This document shows, piece after piece, positions 13,503 through 45,775 of a stretch of 64,000 nucleotides of DNA. The translations under genes and the position numbers were made by a program. The notes under the pieces were generated by a model. That model saw only the letters and a list, made by a program, of their open reading frames with translations, was not told the origin of the DNA and searched no databases. Every line of letters begins with the position of its first letter. Positions within the stretch are counted from its first letter, which is position 1. Source of the DNA: an uncultured Candidatus Saccharibacteria bacterium (GTDB lineage: Bacteria > Patescibacteriota > Saccharimonadia > Saccharimonadales > Saccharimonadaceae); the NCBI GenBank assembly GCA_947367795.1, contig CANBER010000002.1, positions 1-64,000 on the forward strand. The letters run 5' to 3'.

Positions 13503-13579
13503 TGGTGAGTCGGGAGGGACTCGAACCCTCGACACCCTGCTTAAGAGGCAGGTGCTCTAACCAGCTGAGCTACCGACCC
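13503..13579 (-). tRNA. tRNA-Lys (anticodon CTT)
   Basis: Minus-strand cloverleaf: acceptor GGGTCGG/CCGACTC, anticodon stem CCTGC/GCAGG with loop CTCTTAA (CTT), T arm GGGTTCGAGTCCC and encoded CCA. Its 5' end, including four upstream bases, is repeated exactly 110 bp upstream. Confidence 0.95.
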
Positions 13580-13731
13580 AAGTTATTAAAACCAGCTTTA
13601 TTTTGCGCTCAGCTGGCTAGCGCACGAGGTGCTAGATCTTAAATCTACTCGGCGAAAAGCGCCTCGGACAGCAGCTGAGCTACCGACCCAAGTCTTGTTT
13701 ATTGTATCACGAGAGATGAGAAATTGGAAGG
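13562..13731 (-). repeat. tRNA-Lys 5'-end duplication with inverted copy between promoter and tRNA
   Basis: A 22-bp exact duplicate (13562-13583 and 13672-13693) covers the first 18 nt of tRNA-Lys plus 4 nt upstream. The distal copy sits directly behind a promoter (TTCCAA, 17 nt, TACAAT). Between the copies is an inverted D-arm-like segment (+ strand 13607-13623); its GCTCAGCTG at 13607-13615 pairs with 13672-13680. Nested stems CGAGG/CCTCG and TAGAT/ATCTA extend the fold. No T arm or CCA follows the distal copy, so it is not a tRNA itself. Confidence 0.75.
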
Positions 13732-20576: not shown

Positions 20577-21503
20577 ATGAAAAAAATTCTCGCAATCTCT
20601 GGAGGGGTGGACTCGATGGTAATGCTGGATATTTTGACGAAAAAATATAGCCGAGATATATATCATGGGACGAATATGCAAAAAAATGATTATTCGTTTG
20701 GTGATATAATTGTAGCGCATTTTGACCACGGAGTTCGTGATAATTCCCTGGAGGATGCACTTTTTGTCAAGACAATAGCTAAAGACGTATATCATATATG
20801 GTATATTAGCGAAAAGGGCAATCTGGGGCATACCGCATCAGAGGGACAGGCGCGGGAGGCGAGATATGGATTTCTCCGAGCGGCGGCTGAAAAATATGGA
20901 GGCCAGATCTATACGGCACATCATTTGGACGACCTGGTGGAGACTGTAATCATCAATCTGCTGAGAGGTACAGGCTGGAGAGGGTTGGCGTGTTTGGATA
21001 TGCAAGGAGTATATCGACCGTTTTTGGAAGCGATAGATATATATGAGCCGATGGATAAGGCAACGATTCTGGAATATGCGGCCAAACGTGGGCTGAGATT
21101 CCGTGAAGATCAGTCAAATAGTGAAATGAAATATTTTAGAAATCGCGTACGAGAGAGGCTAGGAGAGTATAGTCTAGAATGGGAAGAAAAAATGGAGCTG
21201 TGGAACTTATGGCGCAGACAAAAAGAGCTGAAACACGAAATCGATAGCATAATCCGGCAAATGTTGCCTAGTCGAGGAGAAAAGTGGCAAAGAAAATGGT
21301 TTCGAGAGCTGGACTCAGATGAAGGCGGGAGAAAAGTGGCACTGGAGTTGCTACGAGCGGGGCTTTTGGAAGCGGGCGTGAAGATGACGCGCCCGCAGTT
21401 GGAGGATTTTCGGCAAGCCATTTTAACATCTAGGCCGGGAAAGTATTTTAACCTGCCGAAAGGTCGGATGGTGAGGTTAGAGAAGGATGAATTTATAATT
21501 TAA
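20577..21503 (+). CDS. tilS: tRNA(Ile)-lysidine synthase
   Basis: Converts C34 of tRNA-Ile2 (anticodon CAT) to lysidine so that it reads AUA. The PP-loop SGGVDSM is at residues 8-14, with HFDHGVRDNS and the GHTASEGQAREARYGFL block. At 308 residues it has the N-terminal catalytic domain and only a short C-terminal part. Residues 28-44 are an extra loop encoded by a 48-bp palindrome. A TATAAT box at 20563-20568 is 8 nt before the ATG (leaderless). The CAT-anticodon tRNA at 45534 could be its substrate. Confidence 0.92.
   Translation: MKKILAISGGVDSMVMLDILTKKYSRDIYHGTNMQKNDYSFGDIIVAHFDHGVRDNSLEDALFVKTIAKDVYHIWYISEKGNLGHTASEGQAREARYGFLRAAAEKYGGQIYTAHHLDDLVETVIINLLRGTGWRGLACLDMQGVYRPFLEAIDIYEPMDKATILEYAAKRGLRFREDQSNSEMKYFRNRVRERLGEYSLEWEEKMELWNLWRRQKELKHEIDSIIRQMLPSRGEKWQRKWFRELDSDEGGRKVALELLRAGLLEAGVKMTRPQLEDFRQAILTSRPGKYFNLPKGRMVRLEKDEFII
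20660..20707. repeat. 48-bp palindrome inside tilS
   Basis: ATATCA (20660-20665) and CGAATA (20671-20676) pair with TATTCG (20691-20696) and TGATAT (20702-20707), with equal 5-nt spacers and a 14-nt loop. A similar palindrome lies at 24529-24577 upstream of murA. Confidence 0.65.
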
Positions 21504-44969: not shown

Positions 44970-45401
44970 CTAAATTCCGAAGAGGAATTTGAGCCATTGT
45001 TCAAAGTTGCTGGTAGCGGTAGTCGTAACAGAGGGCGTAGGAACGACACCTGATGACGGCAAGTCAGTTGACTCGGAATTCTTGGAAAGGTAGACCATGG
45101 TCTCTCCGGGGAGCATTTTGCCTTGATATTTGCGTGCGGCTAGCTCTTGATATTCTTTAGAGAGGTAATATTCGTTTTCGAGTTCGAGGGTTTCAACTTC
45201 GAGTTCGAGGAGGGCTTTTTCGCGCTCGCGGTTCATGAGTTCCTGTGCGAGCACCCAGTTGCGCGACATTGAGCTAATTGCTCCCCAAGTCCAGATCAGG
45301 CACAGGGCGAGTGCGATAAATAAAATCACATTATCAAAAACGAAGAGGTCGTGTTTCAGCCAATACTGAGTTTTGCGCAGCTTCGTTTTTAACTCGCCCA
45401 T
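44970..45401 (-). CDS. FtsB/DivIC-like septum formation initiator
   Basis: A 143-residue single-pass protein with a short cytoplasmic N terminus, helix DNVILFIALALCLIWTWGA, a coiled coil (REREKALLELEVETLELENEYYLSKEYQELAA) and the family-typical end ARKYQGKMLPGETMVYL. It should act in the FtsL/FtsB/FtsQ divisome subcomplex. A Pro/Ser/Thr spacer and a final WLKFLFGI follow. TACAAT lies 6 nt before the ATG. Confidence 0.82.
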   Translation of the reverse strand: MGELKTKLRKTQYWLKHDLFVFDNVILFIALALCLIWTWGAISSMSRNWVLAQELMNREREKALLELEVETLELENEYYLSKEYQELAARKYQGKMLPGETMVYLSKNSESTDLPSSGVVPTPSVTTTATSNFEQWLKFLFGI

Positions 45402-45437
45402 GCCTATATTGTACCATACGTTTTACAGGTGATATGG

Positions 45438-45533
45438 TATAATATACTCAAATGCGGGCGTAGCAGATTCTGACGAATCTCTACCTGCGCATTTTCGGAA
45501 AAGGTAATGCAAGCATTCCTTTTTCGCTCAAAT
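45438..45533 (+). repeat. tRNA 5'-end duplication with inverted copy between promoter and tRNA-Met/Ile2
   Basis: TATAAT box at 45438-45443. CTCAAATGCGGGCGTAGC occurs exactly at 45447-45464 and again at 45527-45544, where it runs into the real tRNA. The first copy is followed by the stem AGATTC/GAATCT and then CTACCTGCGCATTT, an imperfect complement of the copy, so 45450-45494 folds into one long hairpin. A second hairpin (about 45496-45526, arms CGGAAAAGG and CCTTTTTCG) follows. No T arm follows the first copy. Confidence 0.8.
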
Positions 45534-45609
45534 GCGGGCGTAGCTCAGGGGTTAGAGCAGGCGGCTCATAACCGCTTGGTCGTTGGTTCGAACCCAACCG
45601 CCCGCACCA
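45534..45609 (+). tRNA. tRNA with CAT anticodon (Met elongator or Ile2)
   Basis: Cloverleaf with acceptor GCGGGCG/CGCCCGC, anticodon stem GCGG/CCGC with loop CTCATAA, T arm GTTGGTTCGAACCCAAC and encoded CCA. It lacks initiator features (no C1-A72-type mismatch or GGG/CCC in the anticodon stem). Elongator Met and lysidine-modified Ile2 cannot be told apart by eye; TilS is encoded in this window. Confidence 0.9.
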
Positions 45610-45636
45610 GACGAGAATATGATTGCATAAAAATCG

Positions 45637-45661
45637 CCCCCGTTTGTATAAACGGGGGTTT
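45637..45661 (+). terminator. Terminator after tRNA-Met/Ile2
   Basis: CCCCCGTTT-4 nt-AAACGGGGG hairpin followed by TTTGGTT. Confidence 0.85.
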
Positions 45662-45775
45662 GGTTGTGTGGTGAACAGGCTGAGCCGGTGGCTCCTACGC
45701 TGAACGATTTGGATAGGCAAGAACGATGCATTACCACATTTTGCAAAGTATAGTCAGTGCAAAAGTTGATTCGAC

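Follow-up and report, generated by a model that had tools for sequence, protein, structure and literature searches.

The question raised by this locus is why a tRNA gene should be preceded by an exact copy of its own 5' end and by a hairpin that carries sequence antisense to that copy. The window, by which is meant the whole stretch of 64,000 nucleotides that was analysed, comes from contig CANBER010000002.1 of an uncultured Candidatus Saccharibacteria bacterium (assembly GCA_947367795.1) and contains a tRNA gene with a CAT anticodon at 45534-45609 (+ strand). This tRNA is most likely tRNA-Ile2 with a lysidine-modified CAU anticodon and not a tRNA-Met, because separate initiator and elongator tRNA-Met genes are present in the genome and tilS lies in the window; its anticodon arm resembles that of Ile2. 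The tilS gene, which codes for tRNA-Ile lysidine synthetase, is located at 20586-21161, some 24 kb away from the gene of tRNA-Ile2.

The duplicated segment, CTCAAATGCGGGCGTAGC, occurs at 45447-45464 and again at 45527-45544 (both + strand) with 100 % identity and a start-to-start distance of 80 bp, and the exact 18-bp copy reported in the earlier note is thereby confirmed. The downstream, true copy consists of 7 upstream nucleotides and tRNA nt 1-11, and the upstream copy, designated the decoy, accordingly covers positions -7 to 11 of the tRNA. The promoter that had been claimed for the locus stands as an extended -10 element, TGGTATAAT, read by eye 5' of the decoy (45435-45443, + strand), but a full -35/-10 pair was not found in the Ile2 leader region in a sigma-70 scan. 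The decoy is paired with an antisense arm in hairpin 1 (45450-45494, + strand), which is centred around AGATTC-TGAC-GAATCT. An inverse complement of the copy had been described within this hairpin; the antisense arm is present in the sequence (CTACCTGCGCATTT, 45481-45494, + strand) but is an imperfect complement of positions -3 to 11, with 11 Watson-Crick pairs, 1 G-U pair and 2 mismatches over 14 positions of the decoy. Hairpin 2 (45496-45526, + strand) separates the antisense arm from the tRNA as had been noted, but its terminator-like appearance was judged by eye only, and no intrinsic terminator was called in the Ile2 leader in a scan of 45350-45700, the T-run of this hairpin being inside its stem. 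A terminator scan did identify an intrinsic-terminator-like site 3' of the tRNA (45636-45659, + strand). The two leader hairpins together have a folding energy of -32 kcal/mol (z = -5.3), and none of 200 dinucleotide shuffles was equally stable. A resemblance of CTGACGA, in the loop of the Ile2 hairpin, to a hammerhead core was considered and rejected, since the sequence falls within a stem-loop and the other strands are missing.

On the stretches examined of the 860-kb genome, 43 distinct tRNA genes were identified with ARAGORN, and three of these (Lys-CTT, Val-TAC and Ile2) have an upstream copy of the 5' end of at least 18 nt, flank included. The longest upstream sense match is 18 nt for Lys-CTT, 19 nt for Val-TAC and 11 nt plus 7 flanking nucleotides for Ile2, and it does not exceed 9 nt within 250 bp upstream of any of the remaining tRNA genes; a chance repeat was ruled out because only three of the tRNAs of the genome exceed a 9-nt upstream match. 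The Lys leader lies on the - strand of the window, where a decoy consisting of ACTT and tRNA nt 1-18 (22 nt with flank, 13672-13693) is followed by the P2 hairpin, CCGAGGCGCTTTTCGCCGAG (13648-13667), by an antisense segment complementary to nt 8-26 of tRNA-Lys with G-U pairs and mismatches (13606-13624), and by tRNA-Lys(CTT) itself (13503-13579). The third decoy-antisense leader of the genome (L013, G000:C21:6525-6709) is outside the window, 5' of tRNA-Val(TAC), and also contains a 13-nt sense copy of the anticodon arm of its tRNA, GCGCCTCGTTTAC. Both the Lys and the Val leader contain antisense to nt 18-26 of their own tRNA, with mismatches, and both fit the decoy-antisense scheme. They have CCGAGGCGCTTKTCGCCGAG in common, and the P2 motif (up to 3 mismatches) was not found elsewhere in the genome; the Ile2 leader shares no sequence with either of them, which bears out the earlier note's statement that the Lys and Ile2 inserts are unrelated. 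The further claim of a single design in both cases holds for the shared architecture but not for the reach of the antisense, which is directed at nt 10-28 in Lys and covers only about -3 to 11 in Ile2. RNase P RNA is present in the genome.

The search for further 5'-end duplications in this genome, which the earlier note had proposed, thus yielded one more case, Val-TAC. About 108 distinct leaders (clusters) of like architecture, mostly found by D-arm patterns, precede many tRNAs in several phyla, and together with the third case in the genome they support the view that a mechanism and not an accident is involved. The earlier note had also looked to conservation in the closest relatives: further cases were indeed found, but the same-genus relatives are without the Ile2 and Lys leaders. 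Among the sampled relatives no Ile2 gene has a copy and the Lys leader is absent from the same-genus relative G001, and the two leaders of the window are therefore not conserved in near relatives. A sample of 41 genomes of the same family contained copies before Lys-CTT (G016, G036, G015, G022) and Val (G006, G027) and a less exact copy before the initiator tRNA-Met of G017. In this last leader (L130) the imperfect copy includes the anticodon loop, GCTCATAACC, and is accompanied by antisense to the loop; the design may therefore extend to the anticodon arm in some tRNAs.

A pattern consisting of a D-arm copy and the real D-arm was matched by 43 of 394 genomes of the family, a few of these matches being ordinary tandem tRNAs, and by none when the pattern was reversed. 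A stricter pattern (D-arm copy, GCTCTANCC, D-arm) was matched by 115 stretches in 84,980 named genomes, with titles naming Saccharibacteria, Peribacteria/Peregrinibacteria and Gastranaerophilales, and in a few cases Alphaproteobacteria, Deltaproteobacteria/Bacteriovoracaceae, Oscillospiraceae and Doudnabacteria. Most of these records are metagenome-assembled, and single odd assignments may thus represent mis-binned contigs. Within a sample of the phylum, 8 of 24 genomes of the family of the window matched, against 3 of 355 of the remainder, and the reversed pattern again gave none. Spread by viruses was rejected after a screen of 2.9 million viral contigs returned no leader match, and an assembly artefact was rejected because independent assemblies of many species, some of only 1-5 contigs, share the architecture.

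In its general form the leader begins with a copy of tRNA nt 1-18 or 1-19 placed about 80-130 nt 5' of the true end, followed in order by P2, an A-rich linker, a small hairpin, the antisense, a spacer and the tRNA. The P2 hairpin occupies the D-loop position in the copy and is flanked by GAG and CGAG. The 3' strand of the small hairpin is already antisense, which then runs through nt ~17-10, and the antisense as a whole is complementary to nt ~10-31 of the leader's own tRNA (in most leaders at least to nt ~17-29), including bases that are missing from the copy. The P2 stem is supported by covariation, with 92.5 % of cells paired and 30 double changes, a result equalled by 0 of 500 shuffles and far above that of slid controls. 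RNAalifold recovered only a trivial CUC-GAG pairing as the consensus of a 34-leader alignment because the lengths of P3 and P2 vary. The design is not confined to one D-arm type, since the leader of Gln-CTG in G200 combines an exact copy of 22 nt with antisense directed at nt 27-37.

The antisense is matched to the tRNA that it precedes. Its pairing with nt 19-33 of its own tRNA, bases missing from the copy, is better than with the other tRNAs in the comparison, none of 10000 permutations being as good, and the free base N of the search pattern forms a Watson-Crick pair with its own tRNA in 92 of 100 cases, with 5 G-U pairs and 3 mismatches, where permutations gave a mean of 37.6 and a maximum of 54; these counts include related sequences, and among clusters alone 53 of 59 are Watson-Crick. 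At an orthologous Lys-TTT locus within one genus, the leader is present in six genomes, reduced to its antisense part in one and absent from twelve, and the promoter is common to all genomes of the genus sampled, those without a leader included. Among four of the Lys-TTT leaders, which were found with a pattern that did not include the antisense or copy nt 1-8, identity is 1.00 over the copy and antisense core; in the stretch that follows the antisense it is 0.60, where shuffled sequence gives 0.51. A second promoter directly before the tRNA (AACAATTT, TTTACAAT) was considered; the motif is also found in leaderless orthologues and is thus an upstream feature of that locus, which may or may not act as a promoter. 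In 38 of 95 cases, where 6.3 would be expected, the leader with the nearest core precedes the same isoacceptor in another genome; some exchanges between tRNAs were seen, but the leaders are mostly inherited with their tRNA.

Given these observations, a cis-acting class of structured 5' leaders that gates tRNA folding and maturation is the most likely account of the decoy-antisense arrangement, and an even chance is assigned to this reading. Transcripts would start just 5' of the decoy copy of tRNA nt 1-18/19, in which the P2 hairpin would stand in for nt ~19-23, so that the antisense would have a longer partner in the real tRNA than in the decoy. In the OFF fold the antisense would hold the real 5' half and the decoy could occupy the 3' acceptor strand, and the true 5' end should therefore be a poor substrate for RNase P; leader structure or pairing beside the cleavage site slows E. 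coli RNase P (PMC9433436). In the alternative, the ON fold, the decoy and a small hairpin of its own would keep the antisense engaged, the tRNA would fold and RNase P would remove the leader. We infer that both folds are formed in the cell, that control is exerted at RNase P cleavage and that something shifts the balance, for which co-transcriptional timing, a protein binding P2 or the decoy, and free tRNA 5' halves are candidates. Patchy presence, related species without a leader at the same locus and the divergence of 20 of 108 decoys speak against gating.

The two folds were compared in ensembles of 128 leader-plus-tRNA sequences, each with 8 nt of 5' flank, using a folding model that cannot score a pseudoknot in which the real 5' strand is captured and acceptor pairing is yet kept. 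The true acceptor stem obtained a probability of 0.02, the decoy in the acceptor stem 0.78 and capture of nt 18-26 0.90; with the tRNAs swapped the true acceptor rose to 0.44 and capture fell to 0.42, and with ordinary upstream DNA in place of the leader the values were 0.36 and 0.25. Separate folding of leader and tRNA lay a median of 9.2 kcal/mol above the minimum, a bias toward the OFF fold, and since the energies ignore tertiary contacts, modifications, co-transcriptional folding and its kinetics, and proteins, these values show that two folds compete and not which of them wins in the cell. A bias of this size, as modelled, would be a heavy burden for essential tRNAs with a single gene copy, for instance tRNA-His. 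The Ile2 leader of the window gave acceptor folds of 0.57 for the true and 0.39 for the decoy strand, with capture of nt 18-26 at 0.0005, and is thus a short, atypical variant near balance between the folds in which only the acceptor strand would be contested. As capture of nt 18-26 is absent, it is regarded as a variant and an unproven member, placed in the class on its architecture only.

The computed ground state, which pairs the decoy and not the true strand with the 3' acceptor strand, would also be expected of an intron-like element, with the first copy as exon 1, the antisense as a guide across the nt 18|19 junction, and removal of the sequence as far as nt 19 of the downstream copy. 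The divergence of the copies bears on which 5' end is mature. Of the 108 clusters, 88 have a copy without differences over nt 1-18; in the other 20 it has diverged, and when the 20 diverged decoys were compared with the 3' acceptor strand, 16 paired worse than the true strand and none better (two rows of this table, L268 and L276, are misregistered, which leaves the direction unaffected). The mature 5' end is thus the downstream one, a result that favours removal of a leader over splicing. With acceptor pairing lost by the first copy and kept by the downstream copy in 16 of 16 differing cases, and no Rfam intron match among 15 loci scanned, an intron appears largely refuted by the divergent copies and is considered highly improbable. 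An insert of ~90 nt is moreover too short for known self-splicing introns.

Two further explanations are the principal competitors of the gating leader. In the one, a non-autonomous mobile or recombining element is inserted in the tRNA D-loop, the 5'-end duplication keeping the tRNA intact and the antisense serving as target guide, and tandem copies result from repeated insertion or unequal exchange. The direct repeat of 18-22 bp at the junction, presence and absence at the same locus within a genus with the promoter retained at empty sites, tandem units before one tRNA (L267, L281, L342), patchy occurrence across phyla, and similar cores in some leaders of different tRNAs would all agree with such an element. 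It would have to be one that encodes no protein, that has no match in the viral contigs screened, and whose common P2 sequence is limited to two leaders of the genome; the nearest leader is also mostly that of the same isoacceptor elsewhere, and antisense and copy have been kept over long divergence, and a mobile element is considered unlikely. In the other, template switching during replication of a tRNA gene leaves a functionless sense-antisense palindrome and direct repeat, whose arms are kept alike by repeat-mediated correction. This would suit the richness of tRNA genes in hairpins, the extra hairpins that interrupt the copy or the antisense in G140, and the simple palindrome formed by the window Ile2 leader, and recombination can keep both direct and inverted repeats uniform. 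Recombination with the tRNA, instead of selection, could indeed be the source of the exactness of the direct repeat; the inverted antisense is less easily explained in this way. Mutational scars would not be expected to share non-tRNA features across lineages (P2 within GAG..CGAG and with covariation, the A-rich linker), to carry an antisense fitted anew to each tRNA at positions that the copy does not contain, or to be kept in orthologues while neighbouring sequence saturates, and they are judged quite unlikely.

The remaining alternative accepts the leader as functional and assigns it a specific signal. A pre-tRNA masked by its leader would be freed by free 5' halves of the same tRNA, for example after a cut by an anticodon nuclease, the 5' fragment binding an exposed UCUANCC toehold and taking the place of the real 5' half on the antisense. 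In favour of this, nt ~10-31, the target of the antisense, correspond to the part that remains after a cut in the anticodon; the leader sequence complementary to nt 18-25 has no partner in the decoy and lies exposed; and each leader is specific to its own tRNA. This toehold-exchange sensor is nevertheless held to be very doubtful, given that the affected tRNAs are diverse, that the window Ile2 leader does not cover the D-loop and that the nascent tRNA offers the same sequence in cis. Of the two explanations advanced by the earlier note, a regulated tRNA leader fits better than a palindromic insertion with long target duplication, on three grounds: the match of the antisense to its own tRNA extends to bases outside the duplicated segment, copy and antisense do not vary although the remainder of the leader is close to saturation, and the common hairpin is found nowhere else in the genome.

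Gating leaders of this kind would share features with several known systems. As in attenuators and riboswitch platforms, alternative pairings in a leader would decide the fate of the downstream RNA; here, however, the controlled RNA is a tRNA, the antisense pairs with mature tRNA sequence, the decoy is an exact copy of the 5' end, and neither a ligand domain nor a consistent terminator was seen in the tRNA leaders. T-boxes read the anticodon and the CCA end of a tRNA in trans and are located before mRNA genes. They resemble the present leaders in that a leader RNA recognises a specific tRNA, whereas here pairing is to the D-arm and anticodon stem and the leader precedes the tRNA gene itself; a search of 15 loci against Rfam 15 gave the tRNA and weak chance matches only, and no T-box match. 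The two halves of archaeal split tRNAs are encoded by separate genes and joined. In both arrangements the 5' portion of a tRNA comes before a segment complementary to it, but the downstream tRNA is here complete and keeps its acceptor pairing. Palindromic or MITE-like elements with target duplication likewise have direct repeats around a hairpin-rich insert, but dispersed P2 copies are absent from the genome and the antisense reaches beyond the duplicated part of the target; an integrase att remnant was rejected because it leaves the antisense unexplained. In the E. coli valVW transcript, pre-tRNA leader structure can likewise slow 5' maturation, through short local pairings or hairpins and not through a leader of ~110 nt with decoy and antisense (PMC9433436).

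No description of such leaders was found in the open-access papers searched, and the decoy-antisense leader looks like an undescribed way to control tRNA production, although one of these leaders may already figure as an unnamed prediction in supplementary lists of structured RNAs. The usual view is that tRNA genes are controlled at their promoters and through decay. Pairing of a leader with its own tRNA, together with a decoy 5' end, would place a tRNA-specific switch in single tRNA genes of regulator-poor bacteria. It would open direct access to the question of what sets the level of each tRNA, and it would supply a natural strand-exchange circuit. The same locus with and without a leader in related species offers a clean test system. 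Release by free 5' halves, if true, would amount to a tRNA-specific self-replacement circuit that has arisen or spread in several phyla.

Several loci depart from the general form. Tandem arrays of 2-3 units of ~100 bp before a single tRNA were seen in L267, L281, L342, L253 and L352, in records titled Cyanobacteria/Gastranaerophilales and one other. Two loci 5' of tRNA-Lys(CTT) (L069, L070) have a copy of 26-28 nt followed by an insert of ~148 nt of different structure, with a second TATAAT directly 5' of the tRNA and without the usual kind of antisense. A 29-nt copy of the 5' end, without hairpin or antisense, lies 48 nt upstream of tRNA-Thr(GGT) (L155/L193, G200:C12) and is perhaps a deletion remnant, and a leader remnant before tRNA-Lys(TTT) (L223, G215:C13) has kept the antisense and lost the copy and P2. 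In the genome of the window, CCACTACGGACGAAGG occurs at 68 sites with up to 1 mismatch, for example at G000:C1:644-659, none of them in the window and with no sites for the reversed control; it is an unexplained dispersed repeat, often located close to contig ends and 5' of tRNA genes.
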